Below are positions 38,465 through 61,165 of a stretch of 64,000 nt of DNA, in pieces. The notes under the pieces were generated by a model that did no database searches, was not told the origin of the DNA, and saw only the letters and a list, made by a program, of their open reading frames with translations. Location of the stretch: assembly GCA_020446815.1 (NCBI GenBank), contig JAGRDY010000029.1:186001-250000 (forward strand), read 5' to 3'. The position numbers were made by a program, and so were the translations under genes. Numbering within the stretch: position 1 is the stretch's first letter; each line of letters starts with the position of its first letter. Source of the stretch: Paracoccaceae bacterium (lineage in GTDB: Bacteria; Pseudomonadota; Alphaproteobacteria; Rhodobacterales; Rhodobacteraceae).

Positions 38465-39844
38465 TCAGTCGCCGGTTGCCGTCTGAACCTCATCGAGCGC
38501 GTCCTCGAAAATGTCGAACATCTCGTCGATCTGCGCTTTGGTGATGATCAGCGGCGGCGAGACCACCGCCATGTTGATCAGCGGGCGCACGATCAGGCCG
38601 CGGGCCTCGCAGGCGTCGTCGACTTTCGATCCGAGCAGGCGCTGGGCCTCCAGATTACGGGCCTTGCATTCGACGCACCCCAACAGCCCCATGCCGCGCG
38701 CATCACCGACGATGTCGAATTTCGCCAGATCGCGCAGCCGCTTCTGGAAATGCGGGGTGATCTGGCGCACATGTTCGAGGATGCGTTCGTCTTCGAGGAT
38801 CTCGATATTCTTCAGCGCGGCGGCGCAGCAGACCGGATGGCCCGAATAGGTATAGCCGTTGCTGAAGCTCGACGGCTCGCCCAGATGGCTCATCGACTCC
38901 ATCACCCTGTCGGAGATGATGCAGGCGCCGAGCGGCAGGTAGCCCGAGGTCAGCCCCTTGGCACAGGTGATCATGTCGGGCTGGATGCCAAAGAGGTCTT
39001 CGGAAGCGAACCAGTGGCCGAGCCGCCCAAAACCGGTCACCACCTCGTCGGAGATGTAGAGGATGTCATTGGCGCGGCATATATCGAAGGTGCGCTTGTG
39101 GTATCCCGGCGGCGGCACGATGACCCCGCCCGAGGCGAGGATCGGTTCGGCGATGAACGCCCCGATCCGGTCGGCGCCGATCGTGGCGATGGCGTTTTCG
39201 AGGTCAGCCACCTTGGCGTCGCACCATGCCGCGACGCTCATGCCTTCGGGGCGGCAATAGGGATTGACGTCGGGCAGGAAATGCACCAGCCGGGTCTCGA
39301 AATCGAAATGGCTCTTTTCGCGTTCCTTGCCGGTCACCGAATGGGCCAGATAGGTCGATCCGTGGTACCCCTTTTCGCGGGCCAGGATGAGTTTCTTGCC
39401 GGGCCGCCCGCGGCGGTTGTTCATGTATTGCATGGTGCGCAGGGCGGTGTCGACGGCGGTCGAGCCGCCGGTGGTGAAGAAGACGTTGTTGAGATCGCCC
39501 GGCGCCAGATCGGCGATCTTCTTGGCCAGAACCGCCGAGGGTTCGGTGAGGTTGGTGAAGGGCGAGGTGTAGGGCATCCTGACCACCTGCGCGGCGATCG
39601 CGTCGGCCATGTCCTGCCGGCCATAGCCGATCTGGGTGCACCACATCCCGGCCGGCCCGTCGATATATCGCTTGCCGTCGCCGTCCCATATGTAGATGCC
39701 CTGGGCGGAATCGACCAGCATGTTGTCATAGCCGCGCCAGTCGTCCATGGCGGCCCAGGGGTGGATCTGGTTCATTCGGTCCCATTCGTGCAGCGTTTTG
39801 ACGCCGGGTTCGTTCAAACGGGTTGCAGCCATCATCTTGCTCAT
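38465..39844 (-). CDS. Class III (omega) aminotransferase
   Basis: A 459-residue PLP-dependent class III aminotransferase. FFTTGGSTAVDTALRTMQY binds phosphate, Asp266 (ISDEVVTGFGR) contacts the PLP ring nitrogen, and Lys296 (CAKGLTSGYLPLG) forms the Schiff base. The family includes taurine, beta-alanine, putrescine and other omega-amine:pyruvate aminotransferases. The ATG at 39844 has AAGGAG; an upstream frame to 39898 is not conserved. It is the last gene of a four-gene minus-strand operon (two FAD proteins, GcvT-like protein, aminotransferase), 16 bp after the GcvT-like gene, so it likely processes an amine product of the island. Confidence 0.9.
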   Translation of the reverse strand: MSKMMAATRLNEPGVKTLHEWDRMNQIHPWAAMDDWRGYDNMLVDSAQGIYIWDGDGKRYIDGPAGMWCTQIGYGRQDMADAIAAQVVRMPYTSPFTNLTEPSAVLAKKIADLAPGDLNNVFFTTGGSTAVDTALRTMQYMNNRRGRPGKKLILAREKGYHGSTYLAHSVTGKEREKSHFDFETRLVHFLPDVNPYCRPEGMSVAAWCDAKVADLENAIATIGADRIGAFIAEPILASGGVIVPPPGYHKRTFDICRANDILYISDEVVTGFGRLGHWFASEDLFGIQPDMITCAKGLTSGYLPLGACIISDRVMESMSHLGEPSSFSNGYTYSGHPVCCAAALKNIEILEDERILEHVRQITPHFQKRLRDLAKFDIVGDARGMGLLGCVECKARNLEAQRLLGSKVDDACEARGLIVRPLINMAVVSPPLIITKAQIDEMFDIFEDALDEVQTATGD

Positions 39845-39860
39845 CTCTTGCTCCTTGTCA

Positions 39861-41054
39861 TCAAAACGGCCCGGGCGGAGTCGCCCTTGACCGTGCATTG
39901 CGAAAAAACGGCTCGCTCACGACGGTGAGCGGCACGATGCGGCGGTCCCACTGACCTTCCTGGTTCACATAGATTTCGACCCAGAGATTGTCGGTGACGG
40001 TCCTGCCATAGGGGGCCCTGAATTCGGCCAGGGCGATGTTGCGCTTGGTGGTGGGCGACCAGACGCCCGAGGTCACATGGCCGACTTCCTTTTTCTTGCG
40101 GTGATAGATCAGCGCGCCCCCGGCCGGTTTGAAACCGGCGATGTCGATGCGGGCCAGATGATGCCTGCCCCCGGTCCCGCGCTGCGGGAGGAGTGCGCGG
40201 CGGCCGTTGAAATGGCCCTTGCCGAAATCCACGAGCTTTTCGAAGCCAAGCTCGATCGGGCTGCGGCCGCGATGCAGCCGGACGGCGGCATGGGCGGGCT
40301 GGAAATCGACGCCGGCGGCGATGAACCCGGCTTCGATGCGGCAGATGTCGAGCGCCTGTGAGCCGATGGCGCGAAGGCCGCAATGCGCGCCGGCGGCCCA
40401 GAGCCTGTCCCACAGATCCGCCACGCTATCCCAGGCGGTCCACAGCTCGTATCCCAGATCGCCGGTAAAACCGGTGCGCGAAATCACCAGGCCCGGCTCG
40501 ATCTCGGCCATGTCGAACGGCCCGAGAGCGGCGGCGGCGGCCAGCCCGGCATCGGACAGGAGCGAATAGCTGGTCGGCCCCTGAAGCGCGAGACCGGCGA
40601 TTTCGTGGGATTCGTCGCGAATATCGGCATCGAAGCCCCAGGCGGTCTCTTGCAGCCAGCCCAGCATCGGTTCCTGGCAGCAAAGGCGAAAATCGGTGTC
40701 GGAGAACCGGAACAGGGTGCCGTCGTCGATCACCATCCCCTCTTCGTCGCACCACAGCGCATAGCCCACGCGGCCGTCGCGCATCCGCCCCGCATCGCGC
40801 GTGACCAGCCGGTTGACCACCGCCAGGGCATCGGGCCCGGTGATGCGATATTTGTGCATCGGCGAGATGTCGAACAGCGTCGACTGGTTGCGGATCGCGA
40901 AATACTCGAACTCTGCGGTATCGAGCACGAGCGGCGAGACGAACCCCGCCCAGTTGGTCCAGCGCCTGGCGGTGCTCAGCGCCTCGAGCCGGGCGTGAAG
41001 CGGTGTCGGGATCGCCCCCACGGGCACGTGGCTTTTCCGGGTCGCTTGGGGCAT
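39861..41054 (-). CDS. GcvT/DmdA-superfamily folate-dependent aminomethyltransferase-like protein
   Basis: A 397-residue stand-alone T-protein fold. The GCV_T core begins near RWTNWAGFVSPLVL; Asp87 (TRDAGRM) aligns with the catalytic Asp of glycine-cleavage T-protein, and GMVIDDGTLFRFSD is the folate-binding-domain strand. The C-terminal GCV_T_C barrel contains KEVGHVTSGVWSPTTKRNIALA. Members move a C1 unit (methylene or methyl) to tetrahydrofolate; DMSP demethylase DmdA is one relative. It lies between a FAD oxidoreductase (TGATG overlap) and an aminotransferase. There are no gcvH or gcvP genes, so it is probably a demethylase component for an N-methyl compound and not part of glycine cleavage. 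Confidence 0.85.
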   Translation of the reverse strand: MPQATRKSHVPVGAIPTPLHARLEALSTARRWTNWAGFVSPLVLDTAEFEYFAIRNQSTLFDISPMHKYRITGPDALAVVNRLVTRDAGRMRDGRVGYALWCDEEGMVIDDGTLFRFSDTDFRLCCQEPMLGWLQETAWGFDADIRDESHEIAGLALQGPTSYSLLSDAGLAAAAALGPFDMAEIEPGLVISRTGFTGDLGYELWTAWDSVADLWDRLWAAGAHCGLRAIGSQALDICRIEAGFIAAGVDFQPAHAAVRLHRGRSPIELGFEKLVDFGKGHFNGRRALLPQRGTGGRHHLARIDIAGFKPAGGALIYHRKKKEVGHVTSGVWSPTTKRNIALAEFRAPYGRTVTDNLWVEIYVNQEGQWDRRIVPLTVVSEPFFRNARSRATPPGPF

Positions 41055-42637
41055 CAGAGGATCCTGTCCTTGAGCAGTTGACGGGCGCTGTTACGGCCCG
41101 GCAGGCCGGTCACGTCGCCGCCGGGATGGGCAGAGGCGCCGCACAGGTAGAGGCCGTGAACCGCGAGCCGGTAATGCGCCAGCCCGTTTGCCGGGCGCAG
41201 CGTGAGAATCTGGTCGATGCCCATTTCCGCATGGTGCCAATGGCCGCCAGGCGCGCCGAACCGCGCCTCGATGTCGGCGGGCGTGAGAAGTTCGGCCGCC
41301 TCGACCAGCCCTTTCAGCCCCGGCATATGTCTTTCGAGCTGCGACAGAACCGTCGCGGTGATCCGGTTGCGGGCCGCATCGCCCCAGCCGCCCCGTGGCG
41401 TGTGTGCGATGTGCTGGACATTGGCCGACAGGATGTGCCGGCCGTTTGTGGCAAGCGACGGTTCGGTCAGCGTCGGGATCACCGCCTCGATCACCGGCTC
41501 GGCGGGCAGTTCGCCATATTTCACGGGGTTGAAGGCACGTTCGACCGCCACCGCCGAGGGCGCGACCAGAAGCCGCCCGGCGGCAAGATCGCCGCGCAGC
41601 CCGGTGATTTCGGGCGCCGCCCCGAGAACCAGGTTGAGCTTGGCCACCGTTCCCTTGCAGCGCAGGTTGCGCGCCCGGCGCACCGCTTCGACATCGAAAT
41701 GGCCGATCCCGGCAAGGGTCATGGTCTGGAGCGGCCCGGCCGAGGAAAGCACCGCCCCGGCCCTGATCGTCGTGCCGTCGCGCAGCGCGACCCCCTTGGC
41801 CGCGTCATTCTCGACCAGGATGCGCACGACATCGCAGCCGGTGCGGATTTCCGCCCCTGCGGCGCGCGCGGCCTGCTCGAACGCGCCGCAGACAGCGCCC
41901 ATGCCGCCTTCGGGCAGGCGCACCGCGCCGCCGCTGCCCAGCCGGTACATCAGGTTGAATACCGTCCCCGGAGAGCGCGGGCCGACATGGTTGCCGCGCA
42001 CCGCGTCGGCGCAGATGGCGCCGGCAAGCGGCCCGTCCGCCATTTCGTCGAGCACCAGATCATGAGCGTTGCCGAGCAGAATGCGCAGGAATTCGCGCAT
42101 CTCGTGCTTGCCGAGCCGCTTCAGGTCGAGCCCCAGCCGGGCCAGCGCGGCCATCTCGCCCATCGTGGCGAGGCTCGCCAGCCCGCCATCGAACCTTGGC
42201 GGCGATTTCAGCGACAACCGCCCCAGCAGGCCCGCGAAGCGGCGCAGCCGCGCGTTCAGTTCACCAAAGGCCGGGGCATCGGGATGGGGCGTGCCATCGG
42301 CGAACCGCGCGGCATCGCCCGCGATGACCACGTGCCGGCCATCGGGCGCCAGCGAGACCGCCGGAATGGGCGGCGATTTCAGAAGAAGCCCGAGCCCCAG
42401 TTCCCGTGCCACCCTGGCATCGAGGTTGTAGAGAAGATGTGCGATCTCGGGCACATGCGCGCCCGCGGCCGGTTCGCTGCTGCGGGCCATGCCGCCCGGG
42501 CGGTCGGCGCGTTCCAGCACGCAGACCGATCTGCCCTTGCGCGCCAGCGTGATCGCCGCGGCAAGCCCGTTGTGCCCGCCGCCGATGAGCACAACGTCGA
42601 AGGCCCCCTTCCCGGCTCCTGTCGCGTCAGGCGGCAT
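41054..42637 (-). CDS. PYROXD2-like FAD-dependent oxidoreductase B
   Basis: A 527-residue flavoprotein of the phytoene-desaturase/PYROXD2 clan. The FAD fold FDVVLIGGGHNGLAAAITLA is at about residues 13-32, followed by the GGMARSSE segment; the C-terminal FAD loop is GLYLCGASAHPGGDVTGLPG. It starts inside the end of the preceding flavoprotein gene (11-bp overlap) and overlaps the GcvT-like gene downstream. The substrate is not known; the context suggests oxidation of an amine or its product. The frame extends to 42781 only within the upstream gene. Confidence 0.8.
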   Translation of the reverse strand: MPPDATGAGKGAFDVVLIGGGHNGLAAAITLARKGRSVCVLERADRPGGMARSSEPAAGAHVPEIAHLLYNLDARVARELGLGLLLKSPPIPAVSLAPDGRHVVIAGDAARFADGTPHPDAPAFGELNARLRRFAGLLGRLSLKSPPRFDGGLASLATMGEMAALARLGLDLKRLGKHEMREFLRILLGNAHDLVLDEMADGPLAGAICADAVRGNHVGPRSPGTVFNLMYRLGSGGAVRLPEGGMGAVCGAFEQAARAAGAEIRTGCDVVRILVENDAAKGVALRDGTTIRAGAVLSSAGPLQTMTLAGIGHFDVEAVRRARNLRCKGTVAKLNLVLGAAPEITGLRGDLAAGRLLVAPSAVAVERAFNPVKYGELPAEPVIEAVIPTLTEPSLATNGRHILSANVQHIAHTPRGGWGDAARNRITATVLSQLERHMPGLKGLVEAAELLTPADIEARFGAPGGHWHHAEMGIDQILTLRPANGLAHYRLAVHGLYLCGASAHPGGDVTGLPGRNSARQLLKDRIL

Positions 42638-44264
42638 GATCGGGCATCCTCCCTGCCTTGCCGAGGCCGCGCAGGATTTCGCGCGCCGCATTCGCCCCGG
42701 GCGCGGCCATGACGCCGCCGCCGGGATGGGCGGACGAGCCGGCCAGATAAAGGCCCGCGATCGGCGTGCGGTACTGCGCATAGCCCGGAACCGGGCGGTT
42801 GAAGAGCAACTGGTCGAAGGTCAGTTCGCCCTGAAAGATATTGCCTTCGGTGAGGCCGACCTCGTTCTCGATATCCCACGGCGAGCGGATTTCGGCATGA
42901 ACGACCCTGTCGCGGATGTCGGGCATCGCCTGGGCGATCTTGTCAAAGACGCTGTCGGCGAAGGCCTTGCGGGTGTCATCGTTCCAGTTGTCGGCCGAGC
43001 GCACCCCGTTCATTTCCAGATCATAGGGCGCATATTGCACGAAAACCGTCATCATGTGTTTGCCCTTGGGGGCCATCGTCGGGTCGATCTGGCTGGGGAT
43101 CAGCATGTCGAAATAGGGCTCGGCCGACCAGCGCCCTTCTTTCCAGTCGTCATAGGCGCGTTCGAGTTCGGCAAGCGAGGTCGAGCAATGCATGTCACCG
43201 CGCAGGAACGGCGCGCCCCTGGGCGCGGCCGGAATGTCGGGCAGCGCATCAAGCGCGATGTTGAGCTTGCCCGAAGAGCCGCGGATCTTGAACCGTTCGA
43301 CCGCGCGGATGAAATCTTCGGGCAGGTGCTTGCGATCCGTATGCTTGAGGAAGGTGCGTTTGACATCCATGTTCGACGCCACGACCGGCGCCGCATAGCT
43401 GTCGCCGTTTTCCAGCGCGACTCCGGTCACGCGGCCGTCGCTTACCAGAAAACGGTCGATGCCCGATCCGGTGACGATGGTGCCGCCCGCCTCTTGGAAA
43501 CTTGCCGCCAGCGCGTTGGAGATGGCGCCCATGCCGCCGCGCGCGAAGCCCCAGGCGCCGATCGTGCCGTCGACATCGCCCATGTAGTGATGCAACAGCA
43601 CATAGGCCGTTCCGGGCGAATAGACGCCAAGACCCGTGCCGATGATGCCCGAGCCGGCGAGATGCGCCTTGATCAGGTCACTTTGGAAATGTTCATCGAG
43701 GAAATCGCCGATGGACAGGGTCCAGAAGCGCAGGGTTTCGGCCAGTTCGCGCCGTCCCAGGCCATGCGCCTTGCGGATCAGGAACAGAAGTTCGCCCATA
43801 TCGCGCGGCCTCAGCGACGCCGGATCGGGCGCGTTGCGCAACAGGAACGGCCGGATGAACCGGCACTGGCGCATCACGGTCTGGCTGAAACGCGCATAGG
43901 CATCGGCATCCGCCGGGCTGTGGCGCGCCATTTCGCGGCGCAGCGCGTCGTGATCCGAAAAATAGGCGAAATAATCCCCGTCGCGCGTGAAGCTGGCCCC
44001 GCCTTCGTAGGGGATCACCTGAAGGCCGAAGCGCGGCAGTTCGAGATCGCGGACGATTTCGCGGCGCAGGAGCGAGCAGACATAGGAACAGTTGGAATAG
44101 GTCCAGCCTTCGTGCAGCGACCGGCTGACCGCGGCGCCGCCGACCCAGTCGTTCTTTTCGACGACCAGAACCCTGAGCCCCGCGCGCGCGAGGTAGCACG
44201 CGGCGGTCAGCCCGTTATGCCCCGCCCCGGCGATGATCGCGTCATATCTGTCGTGCCGGCTCAT
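42627..44264 (-). CDS. PYROXD2-like FAD-dependent oxidoreductase A
   Basis: A 545-residue flavoprotein related to the next gene but divergent from it. YDAIIAGAGHNGLTAACYLA is at residues 7-26, GGAAVSRSLHEGW follows, and GLYLAGSSAHPGGGVMAAPG closes the FAD site. It is the first gene of the operon, preceded by GGAG and by the palindrome at 44323-44336. The pair may form a heterodimer or act in sequence. Relatives are annotated only as pyridine nucleotide-disulfide oxidoreductase domain proteins, so the reaction is unassigned. Confidence 0.8.
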   Translation of the reverse strand: MSRHDRYDAIIAGAGHNGLTAACYLARAGLRVLVVEKNDWVGGAAVSRSLHEGWTYSNCSYVCSLLRREIVRDLELPRFGLQVIPYEGGASFTRDGDYFAYFSDHDALRREMARHSPADADAYARFSQTVMRQCRFIRPFLLRNAPDPASLRPRDMGELLFLIRKAHGLGRRELAETLRFWTLSIGDFLDEHFQSDLIKAHLAGSGIIGTGLGVYSPGTAYVLLHHYMGDVDGTIGAWGFARGGMGAISNALAASFQEAGGTIVTGSGIDRFLVSDGRVTGVALENGDSYAAPVVASNMDVKRTFLKHTDRKHLPEDFIRAVERFKIRGSSGKLNIALDALPDIPAAPRGAPFLRGDMHCSTSLAELERAYDDWKEGRWSAEPYFDMLIPSQIDPTMAPKGKHMMTVFVQYAPYDLEMNGVRSADNWNDDTRKAFADSVFDKIAQAMPDIRDRVVHAEIRSPWDIENEVGLTEGNIFQGELTFDQLLFNRPVPGYAQYRTPIAGLYLAGSSAHPGGGVMAAPGANAAREILRGLGKAGRMPDHAA

Positions 44265-44322: not shown

Positions 44323-44336
44323 TTTGAGCGCTCAAA
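44323..44336. promoter_or_regulatory. Operator palindrome 1 (TTTGAGCGCTCAAA)
   Basis: A perfect 14-base palindrome between the divergent flavoprotein operon (44264) and the TetR gene (44428). The same element recurs at three other gene starts of the island. It resembles BetI-type sites in having TTGA/TCAA arms. A likely target of the adjacent TetR protein, controlling both directions. Confidence 0.7.
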
Positions 44337-44427: not shown

Positions 44428-45078
44428 ATGACGGAGCAGAACGTTCAGGCCACAAGGCCCAGAAGGGAACGCAAGGAAAACGCCGACATGCGGCGGCGCC
44501 AGCTTCTCGATGCGGCCCAGCGCTCGATCGTTCGCAACGGCCTGGCGAAAACCACATTGGCGACCGTGGCGCACGAGGCGGGGCTTTCGCAAGGGGTGGC
44601 GGTGTTCTACTACAAGTCCAAGAACGGGCTGCTGGTGGCGGCGCTCGAAGATCTCTACCAGAAATACGAGGCCAACTGGCGCAAGGCGGTCGACGAGGCC
44701 GGGGACGATCCGAAAGACCGGCTCTGGGCGCTGATCGAGGCCGATTTCAATGAGGACATCTGCAACGCGGAATCGCTGTCGATCTGGTTCGCGTTCTGGG
44801 GCGAGCAGAATTTCACGCCCCAGTATGCCAGCATAACCCAACAGTTCGACCTGAACCGGGGGGGCGCCATCCGCGAGATATGCCGCGCCTTTTTCCCCGA
44901 CGACCAGGCGGCGGCTGCCGAAGCTGTCGCGGATTGGATCGACACGCTCACCGATGGCTACTGGCAGCGCATGCATCTATTTCCCGAGGCATCCCCAAAG
45001 GAAACCGCGCTTGCGGGAACCCGGGCTTTTCTGGCCCGGATACTGCCGGATCATTTCCGTACCGAACGCGCCGGATAG
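44428..45078 (+). CDS. TetR-family regulator, BetI-like
   Basis: A 216-residue TetR-family repressor. The DNA-binding domain (MRRRQLLDAAQRSIVRNGLA, then TTLATVAHEAGLSQGVAVFY) and the YKSKNGLL turn are BetI-like, as is the following helical ligand domain (SIWFAFWGEQNFTPQYASI). BetI responds to choline in the betaine synthesis pathway, so a quaternary-amine ligand fits the island. Its own upstream region has one of four matching palindromes, so autoregulation is likely. The ligand is inferred, not shown. Confidence 0.85.
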   Translation: MTEQNVQATRPRRERKENADMRRRQLLDAAQRSIVRNGLAKTTLATVAHEAGLSQGVAVFYYKSKNGLLVAALEDLYQKYEANWRKAVDEAGDDPKDRLWALIEADFNEDICNAESLSIWFAFWGEQNFTPQYASITQQFDLNRGGAIREICRAFFPDDQAAAAEAVADWIDTLTDGYWQRMHLFPEASPKETALAGTRAFLARILPDHFRTERAG

Positions 45079-45131: not shown

Positions 45132-46019
45132 TCAGTAAAGTTTCAGCGCCTCGATCAGCGGCGGCCATTCCTTGATGCGGCGGCGTGTGTTTTCCGGGCA
45201 TTTGCTGGATACGGCATGAATGATCACATTGACCATTGTGGTCATCGGCCCGGTGCTTTCCAGGAAGGTGTTCATCTTGGTCGTGACATGGAAGACAAAG
45301 GGCGTTTCCTCGGTGGCCCAGGTATTGAGAATGTCGGTCACGACGACGACGTCGATCCCCGCCTCTCGGGCGATGCGGACGATCGGGCGTGCCTCGCGCG
45401 CGTAGGGGACTATGTCTATCATCACAAGACAGCGCGCCCGGTCCTTGTGGCGGCCCGCCGATATCCATTCCACAAGGCCGTCGTCATGCGGAGACAGGAA
45501 CCGGACCGAATCGCGCACGATTCCCAGCCGGCGCGCGAAATCTTCGGCCAGGCCGCGAACCGTCTGAAAGCCGGTGACATAGACATCTTCGGCGTCGGCG
45601 ATGGTTGTGATCGCCTCTTGCCAGCAAGGTTTTTCGACTTCCTTGGAGATCGCCAGAATTGCCTCGGCATCGCGTTTGAGAAATGCGGAAATCCCTCCGT
45701 CGATCAACCGCAGATAGAAATCGGGCGTGGTGGCGAGATGGCTTATCCGGGTCAGTTTCAATTCTTCCTTGAGACCCGCAAGACCCTTGAATCCCGCGCG
45801 TTTGAGAAAACGGCTGACGGTAATTTCGCTGACGCCGGTCTTGGCGGCGATCGAGGCGCCGGACTCCAGCGCCACGGTGGCTTCGTTCGCGATCAGCCAT
45901 TGGGCGATGATCGCCTCGGATTTGGTCAACGCACCCCCAATGGCGCGCAGCCGCGCGGCAAGGTGCGATTCATCGGATTCGGGGCCAGCTTGATTCATGA
46001 CAGGATTTACAGCAATCAT
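45132..46019 (-). CDS. RpiR/MurR-family regulator
   Basis: A 295-residue RpiR-type regulator. An N-terminal HTH_6 domain (LTKSEAIIAQWLIANEATVA, SIAAKTGVSEITVSRFLKRA) and a C-terminal SIS domain (VYVTGFQTVRGLAEDFARRL, VVVTDILNTWATE) are both complete. It is divergent from the first ABC operon and probably controls it. The start is uncertain: the ATG at 46019 gives the longest protein, and the ATG at 45998 is equally possible because neither has a clear ribosome site. The sugar-phosphate-type SIS ligand here is unknown. Confidence 0.8.
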   Translation of the reverse strand: MIAVNPVMNQAGPESDESHLAARLRAIGGALTKSEAIIAQWLIANEATVALESGASIAAKTGVSEITVSRFLKRAGFKGLAGLKEELKLTRISHLATTPDFYLRLIDGGISAFLKRDAEAILAISKEVEKPCWQEAITTIADAEDVYVTGFQTVRGLAEDFARRLGIVRDSVRFLSPHDDGLVEWISAGRHKDRARCLVMIDIVPYAREARPIVRIAREAGIDVVVVTDILNTWATEETPFVFHVTTKMNTFLESTGPMTTMVNVIIHAVSSKCPENTRRRIKEWPPLIEALKLY

Positions 46020-46106: not shown

Positions 46107-47129
46107 ATGAGAAAAGCTATCGGTCTCGCGCTAGGGCTGGCGCTTCTGGGAACCGCTGCCGACGCCGAAGGCAAGCTGGCGCTCTATAATTGGGGCGACT
46201 ATATCAACCCGCTCATCTTGAAGAAATTCAGCGACGAGACCGGCATCGAAGTCAGTCTCGACACCTATTCCTCGAACGAGGAGATGCTGGCCAAGATCCA
46301 GGCCGGCGCCACGGGTTATGACATCATCTTTCCGTCCGTCCACATGCACGACATCATGATGAAGCTCGGCCTGCTGGAAAAGACCGACATCAATCAATCC
46401 CCCGGTTTCGAGAACATCGACCCCGCGACCTTCCGTTCGCAAGAAGACCCCAAGTCGGAATACTGTCTGCCCTATGCTTTCGGGACCGTGGGCATATTCT
46501 ACAACGAGGACATCACCGGCCCGATCACCGGCTGGGCGGATTTTTTCAATATTCCCGAAAAGACAGGGGCCAAGATCACTCTCCTGGATGACATGCGCGA
46601 GGTCATGGCCATCGGTCTTTTCATGACCGGACATTCGATCAACTCGACCGACCCGGAAGAGATACAGGAGGCGACGGACTACATCCTGTCGAAAAAACCG
46701 GCCGTGTCCGCATTCACCTACGAATCGCCGACCCTGCTGCTTTCGAATGATATTGCCGCCGCGCATTTCTTCGTCGGCGGGCATGTGTATTACGTCGACA
46801 AGCCGAACATCAAATATGTCATCCCCAAGGAAGGTGCGACGCTTTACCAGGAAGACATGTGCATGTTGAAGACAGCGCCAGACAAGGCAGAGGCCAAGCG
46901 TTTCATGGAGTTCTACCTGCGCCCCGAAATCGCCGCGCTGAACGTGGACCAGCAGTTCAACGGATCGGCCAACGTGCCGGCGCGCGAACTGGTTGCCGAT
47001 TACATCAGGAACGATCCCACCATCACCCTGCCCCCCGAAACGTTGAAGCGGGTGCAGACCTTCGTCGATCTTGGCAAGGCGCTGAAGCTTTACGACCGGG
47101 CCTGGAACACGATCCGCACCGCGCAATAG
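46107..47129 (+). CDS. Spermidine/putrescine-type ABC importer, binding protein (set 1)
   Basis: A 340-residue PotD/PotF-type periplasmic protein. The signal peptide is MRKAIGLALGLALLGTAADA with likely cleavage before EGK; the mature start KLALYNWGDYINPLIL is the classic PotD opening. It heads the four-gene importer operon and has a strong GGGAGAGG site. PotD-like proteins bind polyamines, but close relatives carry betaines, opines or other amines. The ligand-pocket Asp/Trp set cannot be fully checked by eye. Confidence 0.9.
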   Translation: MRKAIGLALGLALLGTAADAEGKLALYNWGDYINPLILKKFSDETGIEVSLDTYSSNEEMLAKIQAGATGYDIIFPSVHMHDIMMKLGLLEKTDINQSPGFENIDPATFRSQEDPKSEYCLPYAFGTVGIFYNEDITGPITGWADFFNIPEKTGAKITLLDDMREVMAIGLFMTGHSINSTDPEEIQEATDYILSKKPAVSAFTYESPTLLLSNDIAAAHFFVGGHVYYVDKPNIKYVIPKEGATLYQEDMCMLKTAPDKAEAKRFMEFYLRPEIAALNVDQQFNGSANVPARELVADYIRNDPTITLPPETLKRVQTFVDLGKALKLYDRAWNTIRTAQ

Positions 47130-51072: not shown

Positions 51073-51245
51073 CCGGCGCTTGCCCGCGCACGCACGGCAT
51101 GTCCGGCGGTTTCGCCGCCGGGCAGGCCCCCCCCCCGCGCAGGTGCGTGAATTCTACCTTTTTGTTGAAGCGCTCAGATAAATTAATTGCCGGGGCGCTG
51201 GTGGCGGTGTTAGGCTCGGCGCGAAGATTGCAGATCGGATGAACC
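51073..51245. other. Intergenic region with poly-C tract and operator palindrome 2
   Basis: The 173 bp between the S58 peptidase and the first MttB-family gene. A run of ten C (51127-51136) precedes the operator at 51165-51178. No terminator was seen. Confidence 0.5.
51165..51178. promoter_or_regulatory. Operator palindrome 2 (TTGAAGCGCTCAGA)
   Basis: A weaker version of the four-copy palindrome: central AGCGCT and the right arm are kept, with three mismatches to TTTGAGCGCTCAAA. It is 67 bp before the ATG of the first MttB-family gene and is followed by an AT-rich stretch (TAAATTAATT). Confidence 0.55.
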
Positions 51246-54452: not shown

Positions 54453-54528
54453 GATAGCCCCCTTTTCCGGCATGACGGGCCGGGCAGCGTGAGCATGGCG
54501 CAAAAATCGCGCGCAGGCAAATTGTTTG

Positions 54529-54542
54529 ATTGAGCGCTTAAA
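54529..54542. promoter_or_regulatory. Operator palindrome 3 (ATTGAGCGCTTAAA)
   Basis: Matches the four-copy element with one mismatch in each arm. It lies in the gap between MttB copy 2 (start 54452, minus) and the rightward second importer genes, so one site could serve both directions. An A-rich run follows it. Confidence 0.65.
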
Positions 54543-54587: not shown

Positions 54588-54902
54588 ATGAACGCATTAT
54601 CCGCACCAAGGATCCAGCCGCCTGACGCCCGTCCGGGCCTGCCCGCCCGGGGCCATGAAATGCCGGGGCCGGAGAAAGGGCTGCCCTGTCAACGTCACTG
54701 GCAGTTCATCGAAAAAGGCCGGCAGGCCGCGTTTTCAAATGGTTATGACGGCGCCTGTCTCGCAAGCCCGGAAAAGGGCATGCGCGGTCTTCGCGATGCA
54801 TTGCGCGGGCATTTTCACCTTTTCGAAGAACCCGAAACGCAGCCCGGCGAACTGACTGGATGCAATGCGAGATTGCTGCGCCGGGCGGGCGGCAGGGCAT
54901 GA
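54588..54902 (+). CDS. Uncertain small ORF upstream of the second ABC importer
   Basis: A 104-residue frame beginning 46 bp after operator 3 and ending 70 bp before the first permease ATG. The ribosome site is weak (GGCGAGA). The middle (RHWQFIEKGRQAAFSNGYDG, then GLRDALRGHFHLFEE) has protein-like composition, but nothing recognisable and no membrane segment. It could be a real leader gene of the operon or a chance frame in a 520-bp promoter region. Confidence 0.35.
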   Translation: MNALSAPRIQPPDARPGLPARGHEMPGPEKGLPCQRHWQFIEKGRQAAFSNGYDGACLASPEKGMRGLRDALRGHFHLFEEPETQPGELTGCNARLLRRAGGRA

Positions 54903-54972: not shown

Positions 54973-55845
54973 ATGCGGATGAGGCTGGGGCTTGACAGGG
55001 AAGCCAGGCGCGGGCTCTTGCTGCTCAGCCCGACGGCGGGATATGCGCTCCTGATGCTGGCCGCGCCGCTGGTCATGGTGGTCACCTTCAGCTTCTGGAC
55101 CCAGGATTATCTGGATATCGACACGACCCTGACGCTGAACAATTACCGTGAGGCCTGGTCCGAGCCGATCTACCGGGTCTTGATGTTCCGGTCACTCAGG
55201 ATATCGCTGATCGTGACGCTGGCGACCGTCCTGCTGGCCTTTCCGGTCGCCTATTTCCTGTCTTTCCACGTTACGCAGCGCAAGGCGCTGTGGCTGTTTC
55301 TGATCACGGTTCCGTTCTGGACTAGCTATCTGATCCGGGTGTTCCTGTGGAAGGTGATTCTCGGCTTCAACGGGGTGCTGAACACGGCGCTGCTGGAGGT
55401 CGGGTTCATCGAGAAACCGCTGACTTTCATCCTCTACAATGCCAATGCGGTGGTCCTGACGCTTGCCCACGCCTGGGCACCCTTCGCCATTCTGCCGATT
55501 TTCGTCGCGCTGGAAAAGATCGACCGGTCATTGCTGGAGGCCGCCGAGGATCTGGGCGACGGGCCGCTGCGCCGCTTCGTCCGCGTTACCCTGCCGCTGG
55601 CGATGCCCGGCGTGATCGCGGCGACGCTGATTGTCCTGATCCCGACGGTGGGTGATTTCATCACGCCCCGCCTGGTGGGCGGCACCGAGGGCCTGATGAT
55701 CGCCAACATGATCCAGGTACAGTTCGGCAAAGCCAACAACGCCCCGCTTGGCGCCGCGCTTGCGGTATCCTCGATGGTCATCGTGGCGGCGGTCAGCCTG
55801 GTGATCTACCTGGCCGGCAAGAAGCTCGGGGGGAAGGTCGAGTGA
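54973..55845 (+). CDS. ABC importer permease 1 (PotB type, set 2)
   Basis: A 290-residue inner-membrane permease with six helices and an EAA loop (LEAAEDLGDGPLRRFVRVTL). The frame is open to 54865, but the ATG at 54973 follows GGGAG and starts at the first basic residues before TM1. It is the first gene of the second importer (permease, permease, ATPase), followed by a convergent binding-protein gene. Its overlap with the next gene is GTGA. Confidence 0.85.
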   Translation: MRMRLGLDREARRGLLLLSPTAGYALLMLAAPLVMVVTFSFWTQDYLDIDTTLTLNNYREAWSEPIYRVLMFRSLRISLIVTLATVLLAFPVAYFLSFHVTQRKALWLFLITVPFWTSYLIRVFLWKVILGFNGVLNTALLEVGFIEKPLTFILYNANAVVLTLAHAWAPFAILPIFVALEKIDRSLLEAAEDLGDGPLRRFVRVTLPLAMPGVIAATLIVLIPTVGDFITPRLVGGTEGLMIANMIQVQFGKANNAPLGAALAVSSMVIVAAVSLVIYLAGKKLGGKVE

Positions 55846-56675
55846 GGGGATCGGGCCGCAGAGGAGCCGCGAAATGGCTCAGCGTCTACGCCGTCACCTA
55901 CATGGTTTTCCTTTATGCACCGGTGATACTCTTGCCGCTGTTTGCGTTCAACGACGCGACGGTGGTGGCGTTTCCGCTGAGCCACTTCACGACCAAATGG
56001 TTTGTCGTGCTGTGGCAGACCGAGGCGCTTCACGGCGCGGTTCGCAACAGCCTGATGGTGGCGCTTTCCACCGCCGTGTTCAGCACCGTTCTGGGCGCCA
56101 GCGCCGCACGCGCCGCGGCGCGCTACCGTTTTCCGGGCAAGGCCCCGGTGATGGGGTTCATCATGCTGCCGCTGGTCCTGCCAGAAATCATCGTCGCCGT
56201 CGCGTTGCTCGTGCCGATCATGCAGATGGGGCTGTCGCTGTCGTTGTGGACCGTCATTGCCGGGCACGTCCTGATCTGCACGCCGTTTTCAATCGCGATC
56301 CTCAGTTCGGCGTTTCAGGGGTTCGACACCAGCCTCGAAGAGGCGTCGCTCGATCTCGGTGAAACACGGCTGGGAACCTTCAGGCGGGTGATCCTGCCGC
56401 TGGTGATGCCCGGAATCGTGTCGAGCCTGCTGATCTGCTTCACGATCTCGCTCGACGAATTCATCATCGCCTTTTTCCTGACGGGCACGGATGTCACGCT
56501 GCCCGTATACATCTGGAGCCAGTTGCGCTTTCCGACCAAACTGCCGTCGATCATGGCGCTGGGCACCATCCTGCTTGCCCTGTCGGTGGTGCTGCTGGTC
56601 CTGGCGGAATGGTTCCGGCGGCGCGCCGCGCGCCGGCAGGGCATCGAGGCTTCAGTAACCGGAGGGTTGGTCTAA
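55842..56675 (+). CDS. ABC importer permease 2 (PotC type, set 2)
   Basis: A 277-residue permease, GTG start overlapping the previous TGA. Six helices; the EAA motif is LEEASLDLGETRLGTFRRVI. The TAA stop directly abuts the ATPase ATG. It probably forms the channel with the preceding permease. Confidence 0.85.
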   Translation: MRGSGRRGAAKWLSVYAVTYMVFLYAPVILLPLFAFNDATVVAFPLSHFTTKWFVVLWQTEALHGAVRNSLMVALSTAVFSTVLGASAARAAARYRFPGKAPVMGFIMLPLVLPEIIVAVALLVPIMQMGLSLSLWTVIAGHVLICTPFSIAILSSAFQGFDTSLEEASLDLGETRLGTFRRVILPLVMPGIVSSLLICFTISLDEFIIAFFLTGTDVTLPVYIWSQLRFPTKLPSIMALGTILLALSVVLLVLAEWFRRRAARRQGIEASVTGGLV

Positions 56676-57779
56676 ATGGCGCCGGGCACAAACAAGGGCA
56701 TCATCCAGCTCAGCGATGTCACCCGAACCTTCGGGGCGTTTTACGCGCTCAGGAAGATCAACGCCGAGATCCGCGAAGGCGAGTTCTTTTCACTTCTCGG
56801 CCCTTCGGGGTGCGGCAAGACGACATTGCTGCGTCTGATCGCAGGCTTCGACGAACCGACGTCGGGGGCGATCTCGATCGGTGGCAGGCCGATGGCCGGG
56901 ATCGCGGCAAACAAGCGCCCCACCAACATGGTCTTCCAGAGCTATGCGATATTTCCGCATCTCAATGTCGCCGAAAATGTCGGATATGGGCTCACGACGC
57001 GCAAGCTTTCCAAAGCCGAGATCGCCGCCGAGGTCGAAAAGGCGCTGGCCATGGTCGATCTGCAAGGGTTCGGCGGGCGCGCCGCGCACGAGCTTTCGGG
57101 CGGCCAGCGCCAGCGCGTCGCCCTGGCGCGCGCGCTGGTCATGCGGCCCAAGGTGGTGTTGCTCGACGAACCTCTGTCGGCGCTTGACAAGAAATTGCGC
57201 GATCAGATGCAAGTCGAGCTGCGCGCGTTGCAGCAATCCATCGGCATCACCTTCATTCTGGTGACTCATGACCAGGAAGAAGCGTTGATCATGTCGGACC
57301 GGATCGCGGTCATGTTCGAAGGTGAAATCGCGCAGATGGCGTCGCCCGAACAGCTTTACCGCCGCCCCCGGACGAAGCGCGTGGCATCCTTCATCGGTGT
57401 GATGAACTTTCTGCCGGCGACATTCGTCGCGCAGGGCGATGACGGCGTCACGGTCGACATCACCGCCCTGGGGCGGGTGACGATACGTCCGGGCATGGTT
57501 CCCGAGGTTCTGAACCCGGCCACCATCGACACGATCGGGATCCGCCCCGAGATGCTGACCATCCTGTCGAACGATGCAGAACCGGCGGAACGCTCGGCCC
57601 GGGGCAGCGTTACCGGAACCTCCTATTACGGCGACATGACCTATTACACGGTGCAACTGGCCGGCGGCGGCGATCCCGTCACCATCTCCATGCGCAATAC
57701 CGCAGGGCGCTCGGTCCTGCCGTCCGGCAGCCCGGTGACGGTGGGCTGGGGAGCCGAATCGGTCGTCCTTTTCGAATGA
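56676..57779 (+). CDS. ABC importer ATPase (set 2)
   Basis: A 367-residue PotA-type ATPase. Walker A GPSGCGKTT is at about residues 42-50, the signature LSGGQRQ at 140-146 and Walker B VLLDEP near 161-166; the TOBE domain follows (IGVMNFLPATFVAQ, TIGIRPEMLTIL). GGAGGG lies 10 bases upstream of the ATG. It ends the rightward operon; the partner binding-protein gene is convergent with it. Confidence 0.9.
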   Translation: MAPGTNKGIIQLSDVTRTFGAFYALRKINAEIREGEFFSLLGPSGCGKTTLLRLIAGFDEPTSGAISIGGRPMAGIAANKRPTNMVFQSYAIFPHLNVAENVGYGLTTRKLSKAEIAAEVEKALAMVDLQGFGGRAAHELSGGQRQRVALARALVMRPKVVLLDEPLSALDKKLRDQMQVELRALQQSIGITFILVTHDQEEALIMSDRIAVMFEGEIAQMASPEQLYRRPRTKRVASFIGVMNFLPATFVAQGDDGVTVDITALGRVTIRPGMVPEVLNPATIDTIGIRPEMLTILSNDAEPAERSARGSVTGTSYYGDMTYYTVQLAGGGDPVTISMRNTAGRSVLPSGSPVTVGWGAESVVLFE

Positions 57780-57924
57780 CCAGCCGGGTCTGGCGCGGCC
57801 ATGCTCCAGCGTATCGCAAGACCGCAACCGATACGATGCCCGGCCTTCGCGATCAGACGAAAGCCGGGCGGGTGAATCGCGCCGCCGGACTTTCGGAGAT
57901 CCGGTGGCGCGGCGACAGGCAGTC

Positions 57925-58989
57925 TCAGAAACCGGCCTTGATAAGCTCGAACTCGGCGATCATCTTTTCGCGCAACTCCGCGGGAAGCGGCGATTGCCAC
58001 AGGGTGTTCTTGCGGATGTCGTCGGTCGAATCGAGGCCTGCGGCGACCAGATCCTCCTGCGGCATCGCCGCCATCGCGGCCGCGTTGCTATGGCCATACC
58101 CCCACGCCGTCACCAGGTAGTTCGCCGTTTCCGGTTCCAGCCAGGCGTTGATGAAATCGTAGAACCTGTCCACAGACCCCGGGCCATCGGCAAGTTCGGT
58201 ATAGCCGCACACCCAGCTCGAAATGCCCTCGTCGGTATCCTTTTTGACGGCGATGGGATAGCCTTCGCTGCTCATGGTCCAGTAGGTTTCGTTCCAGGCC
58301 CAGGCCAGATAGACCTCGCCGCTTTGCATCAGCTGCGCCAGCGATGCGCCATCGGCCCAATAGGCCCGGACGTTCGGATGCACCTTGCGCAGGAAATCCG
58401 AGGCGGCGCGGAACTGTTCGTCAGTGGCGTTGGCCCAGTCCTTCACACCGGTAGCCAGGAACGCGAGCGCATAGGCGTCATCGACATTGTCGCCGATCGA
58501 CACCCGGCCCGCATGTTTGGGGTCGGCGAATGCCTGAAGCGACTGCACATCGGCCTCGCTCAGGAGGTCGGTGTTATAGGTGGTCATCGTATAACCCCAG
58601 TCGATCGGAACGAAATAATATTCGCCGTTCTTCTGGTAGGCGGGAATGTCGCGGAACGACGGTTCCAGATCGTCCCAGCGCGCGATCCGGCTGGTATCGA
58701 GCGGCCTGAGCAGCCCTGCCTCGATCCATTTCGGGATCGATTGCGAACAGGGATGCGCGGCATCGGCGCGAAACCCCGCGCGAAGCTTCTGAAACGCTTC
58801 TTCCTCATCCCCGAAGAAGGCGTAGGTCGGGCTGTCGCCGTGCTCGTCTATGTAATCGGTGAAAAAGTTCGGGTCCTCGTATCCGGCCCAGTCGAAAACC
58901 GTCAACTCGGGGTCTGCGGCAAGGGCCGCGCCGGCGGCAAAGGCTGCCGCTGCGATGGCACCTGCCGCTGTTATCGTGAAGTGTCGCAT
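57925..58989 (-). CDS. Spermidine/putrescine-type ABC importer, binding protein (set 2)
   Basis: A 354-residue periplasmic binding protein. The signal peptide MRHFTITAAGAIAAAAFAAG ends near ALAADPE; the mature start PELTVFDWAGYEDPNFFTDY is PotD-like. The frame is open to 59082, but the ATG at 58989 follows AGGGAG and gives a normal signal. It is divergent from the TMADH-like gene, sharing operator palindrome 4, and convergent with its presumed importer genes. Its binding specificity is unknown. Confidence 0.9.
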   Translation of the reverse strand: MRHFTITAAGAIAAAAFAAGAALAADPELTVFDWAGYEDPNFFTDYIDEHGDSPTYAFFGDEEEAFQKLRAGFRADAAHPCSQSIPKWIEAGLLRPLDTSRIARWDDLEPSFRDIPAYQKNGEYYFVPIDWGYTMTTYNTDLLSEADVQSLQAFADPKHAGRVSIGDNVDDAYALAFLATGVKDWANATDEQFRAASDFLRKVHPNVRAYWADGASLAQLMQSGEVYLAWAWNETYWTMSSEGYPIAVKKDTDEGISSWVCGYTELADGPGSVDRFYDFINAWLEPETANYLVTAWGYGHSNAAAMAAMPQEDLVAAGLDSTDDIRKNTLWQSPLPAELREKMIAEFELIKAGF

Positions 58990-59088
58990 GTTTTTCTCCC
59001 TGCTAGCCTGGCGCGGTCCATTCTGCGCGCACGTCCGGACCGGGTCCACGGAAAAGTTAGGCGGGAAGAGTGCTTGACTCAAGACTTA

Positions 59089-59102
59089 ATTGAGCGCTCA
59101 AA
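59089..59102. promoter_or_regulatory. Operator palindrome 4 (ATTGAGCGCTCAAA)
   Basis: Differs from palindrome 1 by one outer base. It lies between the set 2 binding-protein gene (start 58989, minus) and the TMADH-like gene (start 59132, plus), 30 bp before the latter ATG. Confidence 0.7.
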
Positions 59103-59131
59103 TAATTTTCAGGCAATATCGGCAGGTAAAG

Positions 59132-61165
59132 ATGCGTGATCCACGACATGACATATTGTTCGAGCCGTTGAGCATCGGCCCGGTCACCACCGCGAATCGT
59201 TTCTATCAGGTGCCCCACTGCTCCGGTATGGGGTGGCGGCGCCCGCAGATGCTTGCGGCGATGCGGGGCATCAAGGCCGAAGGCGGTTGGGGTGTGGTCA
59301 ACACCGAATACTGTTCGGTGCATCCGACATCGGATAACGACGCCTTCCCCTTTGCCGCCCTGTGGGATGATGGCGACATTCGCGCCCATCGGCTGATGAC
59401 GGATGCCGTCCATGAACACGGCGCCCTGGCGGGGGTCGAGTTGTGGCTTGGCGGGGGCATGGTGATGAACCTTGCCACCCGCCTGCCGCCGCTGGGCCTG
59501 CGCAACCGGCCGCAGACCGACAGCGGCGTCTTCCACCCCGGCCAGACCCGCAAGATCGATCGCGACGACATCCGCGACATCCGCCGCTGGCATCGCGATG
59601 CCGCGCGCCGCGCGGTCGACGCCGGATTCGACATCATTTATGTCTATGCGACGCATGGCTACCTGCTGTCGGAATTCCTCGACGCCGACGTCAACGATCG
59701 CACCGACGAATATGGCGGCAGCCTCGAAAACCGCGTGCGCATCGTGCGCGAATTGATCGAGGACACCCGCGAGGCGACAGGTGGCCGGATCGCCGTGGCG
59801 ACACGCTTCAGCGTCGATCTGGCCGACCCCGAGACCTACGACGCTTTCGGCCTGCTCGCAGACCTGCCCGACCTGTGGGATCTGACGGTGCCAGATTACG
59901 GGATCGAGATGGGCACGAGCCGTTTCGTCAAGGAGGCCGCCCTTGTCGACAGCATCGGGCGCGCCAAATCCCTGACCTCGAAGCCCGTCGTGGCGGTCGG
60001 GCGCTTTACCTCGCCCGACACCATGGCGCAGGCGCTCCGGGCCGGCCATCAGGACCTGATCGGGGCCGCGCGCCCGTCGATCGCGGACCCGTTCTTGCCG
60101 CGCAAGATCGAAGAGGGGCGCTATGACGACATCCGCGAATGTATCGGCTGCAACATCTGCTATGCGCACGATTCGTCGGGGGTGCCGCTGCGCTGTACGC
60201 AAAACCCGACGATGGGCGAGGAATGGCGGCTGGGCTGGCACCCCGAACGGGCCGGACGCACCGAAAAGCCCGCCAGGGTGCTGGTGGTCGGCGCCGGCCC
60301 GGCCGGGCTCGAGGCGGCGCGGGTTCTGGGCGAGCGCGGCCATGCGGTGATGCTGGCCGAGGTCGGGCGCGATCTGGGCGGCCGGGTCCGCCGCGAGGCT
60401 CGCCTGCCGGGCCTTGGCGAATGGCTCCGGGTGCGCGACTGGCGGCTCGGGCAGATCGAAAAGCTCGCCTCGGTTGAGATCTTCCGCGAAAGCCTGATGG
60501 CGGCTTCCGACATTTCCGATCTCGGGGCCGATCACATTCTGATCGCTACCGGCGCAAAATGGGCGACCGATACAATCGGCCGACACTCGGCCACCGGACT
60601 GACCCGTGAAGCGCCGGGGATGGTCGCCAGCGCCGAGACGATCCTGAACCATCAGCATGTGGACGCGGATCATGTCGTGATCTATGACGACGATCACTAT
60701 TACATGGGCACGGTCCTTGCGTTGCATCTGCGCCAGGCAGGACACCGGGTGACATTGGTCACGCCCGCCGGAAGACCCTGTGAATACGGGGTTTTCACCG
60801 GCGAAATTCACAGCTCGAATGCCGCGCTTGTCGAAGCGGGCGTCGATATCATCACCAATCGGATGATCACCGCGGTCGAGCCGGGCCGCGCCGAAATGGA
60901 ATGCGTGTTCGCGGGCCGCCGGTCGTCCCTTGACTGCGATCTGGTCATTCCGGTCTGCCGCCGCCTGCCGGTCACGACACTTTACGACGGGCTGCGCGCG
61001 CTCATGGACGGGCCCGCGGCCGCGGGGATCCGATCGGTTCGCCGGATCGGCGATGCGGAAGCCCCCGGCACGATCGCGGCGGCGGTCTATTCCGGCCACC
61101 GCGCGGCGATGGAACTGGGATGCGAGGTCGATTCGACAAGGATTTACGGGCGCCGCGACCGCTGA
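59132..61165 (+). CDS. Trimethylamine-dehydrogenase-like iron-sulfur flavoprotein
   Basis: A 677-residue Old-Yellow-Enzyme/TMADH-type protein. The start MRDPRHDILFEP aligns without gap to trimethylamine dehydrogenase, so Cys30 (YQVPHC) matches its covalent FMN cysteine and Tyr60 (NTEYCS) its substrate-cage Tyr. Tyr172 and His175 (YVYATHGY) match the catalytic Tyr/His. Cys337, Cys340, Cys343 and Cys355 (CIGCNIC, RCTQNP) should bind [4Fe-4S]; a Rossmann ADP domain follows (VLVVGAGPAGLEAARVL). The cage Trp four residues after the third cluster Cys in TMADH is Asp347 here. It likely oxidatively demethylates an amine other than TMA, releasing formaldehyde; electrons would go to ETF. Confidence 0.85.
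   Translation: MRDPRHDILFEPLSIGPVTTANRFYQVPHCSGMGWRRPQMLAAMRGIKAEGGWGVVNTEYCSVHPTSDNDAFPFAALWDDGDIRAHRLMTDAVHEHGALAGVELWLGGGMVMNLATRLPPLGLRNRPQTDSGVFHPGQTRKIDRDDIRDIRRWHRDAARRAVDAGFDIIYVYATHGYLLSEFLDADVNDRTDEYGGSLENRVRIVRELIEDTREATGGRIAVATRFSVDLADPETYDAFGLLADLPDLWDLTVPDYGIEMGTSRFVKEAALVDSIGRAKSLTSKPVVAVGRFTSPDTMAQALRAGHQDLIGAARPSIADPFLPRKIEEGRYDDIRECIGCNICYAHDSSGVPLRCTQNPTMGEEWRLGWHPERAGRTEKPARVLVVGAGPAGLEAARVLGERGHAVMLAEVGRDLGGRVRREARLPGLGEWLRVRDWRLGQIEKLASVEIFRESLMAASDISDLGADHILIATGAKWATDTIGRHSATGLTREAPGMVASAETILNHQHVDADHVVIYDDDHYYMGTVLALHLRQAGHRVTLVTPAGRPCEYGVFTGEIHSSNAALVEAGVDIITNRMITAVEPGRAEMECVFAGRRSSLDCDLVIPVCRRLPVTTLYDGLRALMDGPAAAGIRSVRRIGDAEAPGTIAAAVYSGHRAAMELGCEVDSTRIYGRRDR

Follow-up and report, generated by a model that had tools for sequence, protein, structure and literature searches.

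An apparent quaternary-amine catabolic island with two dissimilar non-pyrrolysine MttB homologues in a Paracoccaceae genome

The window analyzed here, a stretch of 64,000 nucleotides from a Paracoccaceae bacterium (assembly GCA_020446815.1, contig JAGRDY010000029.1, positions 186,001 to 250,000), contains at positions 38465 to 61165 a gene island encoding two non-pyrrolysine homologues of the methyltransferase MttB, named MttB1 and MttB2. We lean towards the view, at somewhat better than even confidence, that this island, under the control of its TetR-family regulator, imports and degrades a quaternary N-methyl amine, the first methyl group being passed to a corrinoid protein encoded elsewhere in the genome. 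An earlier note made from this DNA alone had described a catabolic island for quaternary or N-methyl amines with two such homologues, and its gene content supports this description as apparent. The genes central to this reading are:

44428..45078, plus strand: TetR-family regulator with a BetI-type C-terminal domain (TetR_C_6); sister orthologue 58% identical
51246..52811, plus strand: MttB1, canonical non-pyrrolysine MttB-family methyltransferase (PF06253, 346.8 bits, cut-off 25)
52959..54503, minus strand: MttB2, divergent MttB subfamily (PF06253, 171.7 bits, above the cut-off); start at 54452 likely
54588..54902, plus strand: Rieske oxygenase gene remnant of 104 codons, similar to the intact gene L055:11189-12430
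54973..55845 (open reading frame listed from 54865), plus strand: PotB2 permease, 82% identical in the sister island
55842..56675, plus strand: PotC2 permease, 81% identical in the sister island
56676..57779, plus strand: PotA2 ATPase (TIGR01187, 353.6 bits, just under the cut-off of 355.6)
57925..59082, minus strand: binding protein SBP2, PotD/F-like (SBP_bac_8, 68.4 bits; putrescine-binding protein 7xjm, 89 bits)
59090..61165, plus strand: flavoprotein resembling histamine and trimethylamine dehydrogenases (3k30, 668 bits); true start probably slightly downstream of 59090

MttB1 and candidate corrinoid partners encoded in trans

Of the 29 columns that are conserved in 20 or all of the 21 canonical MttBs compared (MttB1 itself included), MttB1 keeps every one and MttB2 keeps 19; the two homologues should therefore not be lumped together. 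The refuting condition named in the earlier note, MttB copies without conserved residues, applies to MttB2 and not to MttB1. The mttB1 frame has no internal stop, and thus no pyrrolysine codon, and a Met is aligned with Pyl334. In the tree, MttB1 clusters (support 100/97) with the MttB from a conserved operon of the type importer-flavoprotein-MttB-aminotransferase, and its dN/dS against the L074 orthologue was about 0.10, with a dS of 1.25 that is near saturation. Orthologues 74-84% identical were found, besides the window, in two Shimia islands (L074 and L088) and in one metagenome-assembled genome (MAG; L089). Among 292 genomes of the window's order, its own included, MttB1 was detected in 18 (E<=1e-140) and MttB2 in two (E<=1e-120); the two congeners in this sample (G099 and G106) had neither at these thresholds.

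The source genome (3.47 Mb, 37 contigs, 99.98% complete) encodes 12 PF06253 (MttB) proteins according to a profile search. As the earlier note had stated, the island has no corrinoid gene: the four PF02310 matches of the genome lie on contigs C32, C33, C10, and C6. A hidden corrinoid gene within the island was likewise rejected, with no match on the window's contig. Two of these four proteins, on C32 and C33, are short corrinoid proteins, and the two others lie in open frames of about 700 aa. The C32 protein (233 aa) gave its top score with MtgC (192.6 bits) and its gene adjoins a DUF1638 gene. An MtgD-like protein is encoded on C21 (PRK07535, 401 bits, cut-off 259), and the sole RACo protein found in the genome on C29. 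No full-length MetH was found in the genome search, as PF02607 matched only the two short proteins, both in frames below 300 aa. The genome thus has the gene layout of an MtgBCD-type system acting in trans, and no tblastn match to corrinoid, MtgD, RACo, or URO-D genes was obtained near the 12 MttB genes in stretches of mostly about 8 kb on either side.

There is a precedent for this layout. According to the available text of Mausz et al. (PMC12478193), mtgC and mtgD of Ruegeria pomeroyi are each required, as shown by deletion, for glycine betaine use and methionine synthesis, and two PF06253 proteins of this aerobic bacterium increase on N-osmolytes, a result obtained by proteomics and not by gene deletion; the same text puts the number of PF06253 genes in a genome at up to seven and suggests other substrates for them. 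The layout found here matches that of R. pomeroyi, so that known biology accounts for most of the puzzle of the missing corrinoid protein. These aerobic data, as far as the available text goes, also supersede the earlier statement that placed the known non-pyrrolysine MttB proteins in anaerobes. The suggestion that the corrinoid protein lies elsewhere is supported by the proteins on C32, C21, C29, and C33 together with this precedent; the search of the rest of the genome for corrinoid and pterin partners that had been proposed yielded MtgC-like and MtgD-like candidates at other loci. MttB1 would transfer a methyl group to a corrinoid protein, and candidate acceptors are encoded in the genome.

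The second stand-alone corrinoid protein (C33:104451; L014 and L022) shares 42% identity with the MtgC-like protein and is preceded by a gene for a URO-D-type methyltransferase-like protein; no MttB match was found in the 18 kb around it. The MttB loci on C7 and C10 (L025 and L027) also have genes similar to histamine/trimethylamine dehydrogenases, 46-50% identical to that of the window, plus one at 30%.

The sister island, the Rieske remnant, and the palindrome

The analysis of gene-cluster conservation, also proposed earlier, revealed a contiguous sister island in another genus (genome G285), the proteins of which are 58-83% identical to those of the window. Its order is MttB2(-), Rieske oxygenase(+), PotB2-C2-A2(+), SBP2(-), flavoprotein(+), aminotransferase(-), GcvT(-), PYROXDa(-), PYROXDb(-), and TetR(+). 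In the window, the same gene set is split by RpiR, PotD1ABC, S58, and MttB1.

The island of the window has no intact Rieske oxygenase gene, only an internally deleted remnant that retains parts of both ends and lacks about 290 internal residues. Compared with the intact sister gene, its C-terminal part is 46% identical over 59 aa (E=3e-13) and its N-terminal part 41% identical over 34 aa (E=3e-4), and the alignment score of 152 exceeded that of all 300 shuffled sequences (mean 56, sd 9, largest 87). Among solved structures, the sister protein is nearest to the carnitine monooxygenase CntA (129 bits), and it gave 134 bits, below the cut-off, for glycine betaine monooxygenase. This Rieske gene occurs in eight islands (L055, L083-L087, L091, and L114), the genomes of which have no MttB1 orthologue at 74% identity or above (0/8; best matches 45-50% identical), and no intact copy was found in the fetched loci of the four MttB1 islands (0/4); a genome-level search behind this comparison took in 18 genomes. 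None of the compared islands combines this Rieske oxygenase with a close orthologue of MttB1, so that the first demethylation was probably taken over by MttB1, possibly in a single event. Beside the sister island, at 811-8887 of L055, lies another set with TetR, importer, flavoprotein, and Rieske genes, which belongs to the wider operon type; no MttB1-like match of its own was found in it.

A palindrome resembling an operator was observed at the following sites (listed without strand):

44323..44336: TTTGAGCGCTCAAA, exact, in the PYROXDb/TetR divergent promoter; sister copy at L071:5235
54529..54542: 2/14 mismatches (1/12 in the inner part), in the promoter between MttB2 and importer 2/Rieske remnant; sister copy at L055:11170
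59089..59102: 1/14 mismatch, inner 12-mer exact, in the SBP2/flavoprotein promoter; sister copy at L055:16557 (1/12 mismatch)
51165..51178: degenerate site upstream of MttB1, 3/14 mismatches

The inner 12-mer TTGAGCGCTCAA occurs exactly only twice in the 3.47 Mb, both times in the island (44324 and 59090), with a one-mismatch copy at 54530. When each site of the genome was read on both strands, seven sites had at most one mismatch, compared with three for a reversed control; four of the seven are outside the island, which contains one of the five one-mismatch sites. In the sister island of G285, the same three divergent promoters carry the motif with no more than one mismatch. Among 49 further MttB2 loci (see below), 16 have it, again with at most one mismatch, in the stretch of about 220 bp that precedes the MttB2 match, and these represent 16 of the 17 loci with at least 64% identity and with the promoter on the contig. 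The position of the palindrome suggests that it is bound by the TetR-family regulator.

The MttB2 subfamily and its flavoprotein neighbour

In a tree with rows for 12 of 46 MttB2 proteins plus those of the window and of G285, MttB2 stands apart as a clade of its own with a support of 100/100, and the inner branch that bears it is long (2.3 plus 0.3 on the two sides of the drawn root). Homologues were found in 49 further loci of Alpha- and Gammaproteobacteria, from named or MAG records. The positions H167, E290, and Q363 of MttB1, occupied by His, Glu, and Gln in 20 or 21 of the 21 canonical rows, are replaced by Asp, Thr, and Asp in 48/48 full-length MttB2 members, a count that left out three of the 49 loci in which the frame was not full length. 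G379 is also replaced, by Arg in one alignment and by Ser/Asn in another. The same Glu, Asp, and Gln are seen in the MttB and MtgB structure sequences and are lost in MttB2. The loci were collected with two peptide patterns (FMPGMTC and FNQDAVW), and residues within these patterns are therefore partly selected; D365 lies inside the second one, and the 6/48 members without N363 still have D365. The replacements of H167, E290, and G379 are outside both patterns.

W468 and G472 are changed in most MttB2 members, and both are in the region matching loop 396-452 of MttB, a dimerization loop that helps to hold MttC according to the available text of PMC9842639. A special divergence of this loop was rejected over its whole length, since its mean identity to canonical MttBs (17.6%) is hardly below that of the barrel (20.2%), with only W468 and G472 altered. 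We also rejected the idea that MttB2 is a decaying copy: a 67% identical orthologue carries the same replacements, and a dN/dS of about 0.18 against L076 indicates purifying selection.

A gene for the flavoprotein was found within 10 kb of MttB2 in 37 of the 49 loci (matches over more than 30% of the query length were kept, or more than 40% in the wider operon comparison), and six of the 12 others (L084, L100, L105, L106, L117, and L119) have less than 5 kb on one side. In one MAG (L107:10001-13074), two tandem MttB2 genes precede the flavoprotein gene. No match to MtgC, to the second corrinoid protein, to MtgD, or to RACo was found in any of the 49 loci (up to 10 kb). A stand-alone corrinoid protein, counted by hand as an open frame below 420 aa that scores at least 54 bits for PF02607, was present in 42 of 47 MttB2 genomes, that of locus L121 being left out, versus 8/115 among those genomes of a phylum sample that do not belong to the window's family; this sample is not matched for lineage. 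The five misses are G300 and G336 (none), G333 (only a 1238-aa frame), G322 (61.8 bits in a 1249-aa frame), and G327 (51.1 bits). The five genomes of the window's own family in the phylum control all have the short corrinoid protein, so that the association says nothing inside this family. Moreover, all 47 MttB2 genomes have 4-18 PF06253 matches, and the corrinoid protein therefore cannot be attributed to MttB2 itself; a tie to MttB2 alone was rejected on this count. The upper value, observed among genomes G292-G338, is above the "up to seven" in the available text of PMC12478193.

These data bear on an explanation that differs from ours for MttB2, which we regard as possible and clearly short of even: MttB2 would not donate methyl groups to a corrinoid protein at all and would act with the flavoprotein in a corrinoid-independent step, such as the handling of an N-methyl iminium or the transfer of a one-carbon (C1) unit to tetrahydrofolate (THF) with the GcvT-like protein. 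The separate clade, the replacements common to all 48 members, the change of W468 and G472, and the frequent flavoprotein gene in loci that lack corrinoid, MtgD, and RACo matches all point in this direction. Against it, MttB2 keeps 19 of the 29 conserved columns, its MttC-contact loop is hardly more diverged than the barrel, and the usual acceptor would be available to it, since most genomes with MttB2 have a stand-alone corrinoid protein beside several PF06253 proteins. A little more doubtful still is the proposal that MttB2 represents a new MttB branch of Alpha- and Gammaproteobacteria that, with a flavin-linked amine dehydrogenase, acts on a tertiary or secondary N-methyl amine or its iminium, dispensing with a corrinoid protein or using a new acceptor.

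The proposed pathway, its alternatives, and known systems

Every gene named in the earlier list for 38465..61165 was recovered by profile and structure-relative searches. The island is flanked by uvrB on the left and by folD and the formate-THF ligase gene on the right, and the remaining features are:

38465..39898, minus strand: class III omega-aminotransferase, PRK07036 type (NCBIfam, 645.7 bits, cut-off 618)
39861..41054, minus strand: GcvT-like folate-binding protein (PF01571, 183.6 bits; PF08669, 37.4 bits)
41054..42781, minus strand: PYROXD2/CrtO-like FAD protein a (PYROXDa; Pfam Amino_oxidase/DAO); sister orthologue 64% identical
42627..44264, minus strand: PYROXD2/CrtO-like FAD protein b (PYROXDb; Pfam Amino_oxidase/DAO); sister orthologue 83% identical
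45132..46019, minus strand: RpiR-type regulator (PF01418, HTH_6)
46107..47129, plus strand: binding protein PotD1 (NCBIfam PotD, 179.5 bits, below the cut-off of 582; SBP_bac_8)
47171..48238, plus strand: PotA1 ATPase (TIGR01187, 360.8 bits, cut-off 355.6)
48235..49122, plus strand: PotB1 permease (NCBIfam search)
49119..49961, plus strand: PotC1 permease (NCBIfam search)
49963..51072, plus strand: S58 (DmpA-type) peptidase (PF03576, 337.8 bits)
61509..62447, minus strand: FolD, flanking C1-folate gene (Pfam, 215.2 and 142.2 bits)
62783..64000, minus strand: formate-THF ligase (FTHFS; PF01268), running off the window and complete in L033:784-2460

The claim of two complete importers stood as to their components, which are all present (PotD/A/B/C at 46107-49961(+) for importer 1, and PotB/C/A at about 54973-57779(+) plus SBP2 for importer 2), but the binding protein of importer 2 is on the minus strand and not on the plus strand; the plus-strand frame 57904-59139 was rejected as a second binding protein, as it is antisense and matched no family. 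The cassette 45132-51072 (RpiR, PotD1ABC, and S58) is without the palindrome. RpiR and S58 had no match in the 49 MttB2 loci and PotD1 just one (30%, L109). Importer 1, RpiR, and S58 appear to form a cassette of their own that lies between the two halves of the island, and RpiR probably regulates importer 1 and stands outside the TetR regulon.

The flavoprotein described earlier as similar to trimethylamine dehydrogenase does belong to that family, but it is nearer to histamine dehydrogenase (3k30, 668 bits) than to trimethylamine dehydrogenase (1djn, 548 bits). Its cysteines align with those of 3k30 and presumably serve as the flavin link and the 4Fe-4S ligands. The aminotransferase, 82.6-82.8% identical to its sister orthologue, has as its best solved relative 3i5t (447 bits), to which no function is assigned, and is related to the putrescine/polyamine aminotransferases 6gwi (340 bits) and 9j4z (328 bits). 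The top NCBIfam matches were, both below cut-off, the C-terminal part of trimethylamine N-oxide demethylase for the GcvT-like protein (sister orthologue 76% identical) and CrtO for the two FAD amine-oxidoreductase-like proteins, which we call PYROXD2-like. The true start of PYROXDa is probably near 42.6 kb, as its first ~58 residues seem spurious.

In the pathway that we propose, the substrate would be taken up via PotBCA2/SBP2, and MttB1 would transfer its first methyl group to cob(I)alamin bound by a corrinoid protein acting in trans (the MtgC-like protein of C32), from which the MtgD-like protein would hand it to THF; in the sister islands, this first demethylation is probably carried out by the O2-dependent Rieske oxygenase. 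The flavoprotein and the divergent MttB2 may then remove the remaining N-methyl groups, the PYROXD2-like proteins and the omega-aminotransferase may process the demethylated amine, with transamination of the freed amine, and the C1 units may be conveyed on THF by the GcvT-like protein, FolD, and FTHFS. Quaternary amines that yield an omega-amine on demethylation are candidates for the substrate, with gamma-butyrobetaine, beta-alanine betaine, and delta-valerobetaine as examples; none is singled out. Homarine was dropped as a substrate, since a literature search and the available text of PMC9723723 gave no gene link.

Several observations weigh against this pathway or parts of it. Gene content, conservation, the palindrome, and the remnant were observed, whereas all catalytic steps are deduced. 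The MtgC-like protein scored below the "exception" cut-off of 370 of the NCBIfam MtgC model, and the partner of MttB1 might instead be the second corrinoid protein, encoded on C33 beside the URO-D protein. The operator-like site before MttB1, taken alone, is no better than chance; at up to 3/14 mismatches, the window contains seven sites (three of which do not belong to the island) versus 2.4 expected, a number reached by 2/100 shuffles. L076 has neither this Rieske oxygenase nor a close MttB1 orthologue, and since it forms one clade with the window and L074 in the tree, the loss of the Rieske gene may be one event and not many independent ones. A different Rieske oxygenase and an MttB are encoded in the same operon in eight relatives (L056-L060, L063, L064, and L070), so that Rieske and MttB proteins are not alternatives everywhere; no Rieske match was obtained in L061, L062, and L065 of this wider operon family. 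Another Rieske oxygenase (30% identity) is encoded on C17, and MttB2 may be doing something else altogether.

It is unlikely, in our judgment, that the island instead degrades a polyamine or another non-quaternary amine, with the MttBs being secondary. The PotABCD-type importers and the relationship of the aminotransferase to 6gwi and 9j4z are consistent with such a function, as are the acidic residues of PotD1 at the positions aligned with two acidic contacts of PotD; SBP2, however, has Gly and Cys at these two positions (which we take to be PotD contacts). The sister Rieske oxygenase is nearest to carnitine and glycine betaine monooxygenases, and MttB2 and the flavoprotein occur in many loci without a match to importer 2 or the aminotransferase, which also argues against a polyamine as the substrate. 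Far less probable is a direct transfer of the methyl group from MttB to THF via the GcvT-like protein, one of the options raised in the earlier note, for which no positive evidence was found. The GcvT-like gene does lie in the same run as the palindrome-marked PYROXD genes in both the window and the sister island, but GcvT was found in only 9/49 MttB2 loci, though many of these loci end early, MttB1 lacks none of the columns conserved in canonical MttBs, and the components of a corrinoid route are encoded in the genome.

The TetR-controlled quaternary-amine island that we propose is of a known kind, with two features for which searches of one open-access library gave no published description, namely an MttB subfamily with a frequent flavoprotein neighbour and the probable replacement of a Rieske oxygenase by a B12-dependent demethylase. 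In the B12 hub recently described for marine bacteria, one corrinoid protein serves both the synthesis of methionine and the breakdown of betaine; the analysis extends this hub to a genome that has 12 MttBs and a gene set marked by a palindrome, and it points to a probable swap of an oxygen-dependent for a B12-dependent demethylase with the remnant still in place. It also marks out the MttB2 subfamily by its altered conserved residues, its frequent flavoprotein neighbour, and its scattered distribution over Alpha- and Gammaproteobacteria; which methylated amines these genes consume therefore becomes directly testable.

Compared with the MtgBCD(E) system of R. pomeroyi and Phaeobacter inhibens, as given in the available text of PMC12478193, the PF06253 genes are likewise unlinked to the MtgC-type, MtgD-type, RACo, and DUF1638 genes, and no full-length MetH was found. 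The genome differs by its 12 MttBs (up to seven in that text), by the divergent MttB2, and by a second corrinoid protein, and the island by a palindrome-marked set with an importer, an amine dehydrogenase, and an aminotransferase, whereas MtgBCD(E) acts in glycine betaine demethylation and as a split methionine synthase. Among the non-pyrrolysine MttBs of anaerobes (MtgB; MtpB, MtcB, and MtyB of Eubacterium limosum), MttB1 matches MtgB (2qne, 195 bits) and has a Met where MttB has pyrrolysine; their corrinoid partner is known, whereas that of MttB1 is deduced, and MttB2 departs from the conserved residues. The flavoprotein is a full-length match to the histamine/trimethylamine dehydrogenase family, which presumably also includes DgcA and StcD, with the cysteines aligned, and differs in that genes of its type are usually near an MttB gene. 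With respect to the Rieske quaternary-amine oxygenases (CntA, GbcA, and Stc2), the sister island has an intact gene, with CntA as the best solved relative of its product, whereas the window retains only the internally deleted remnant.

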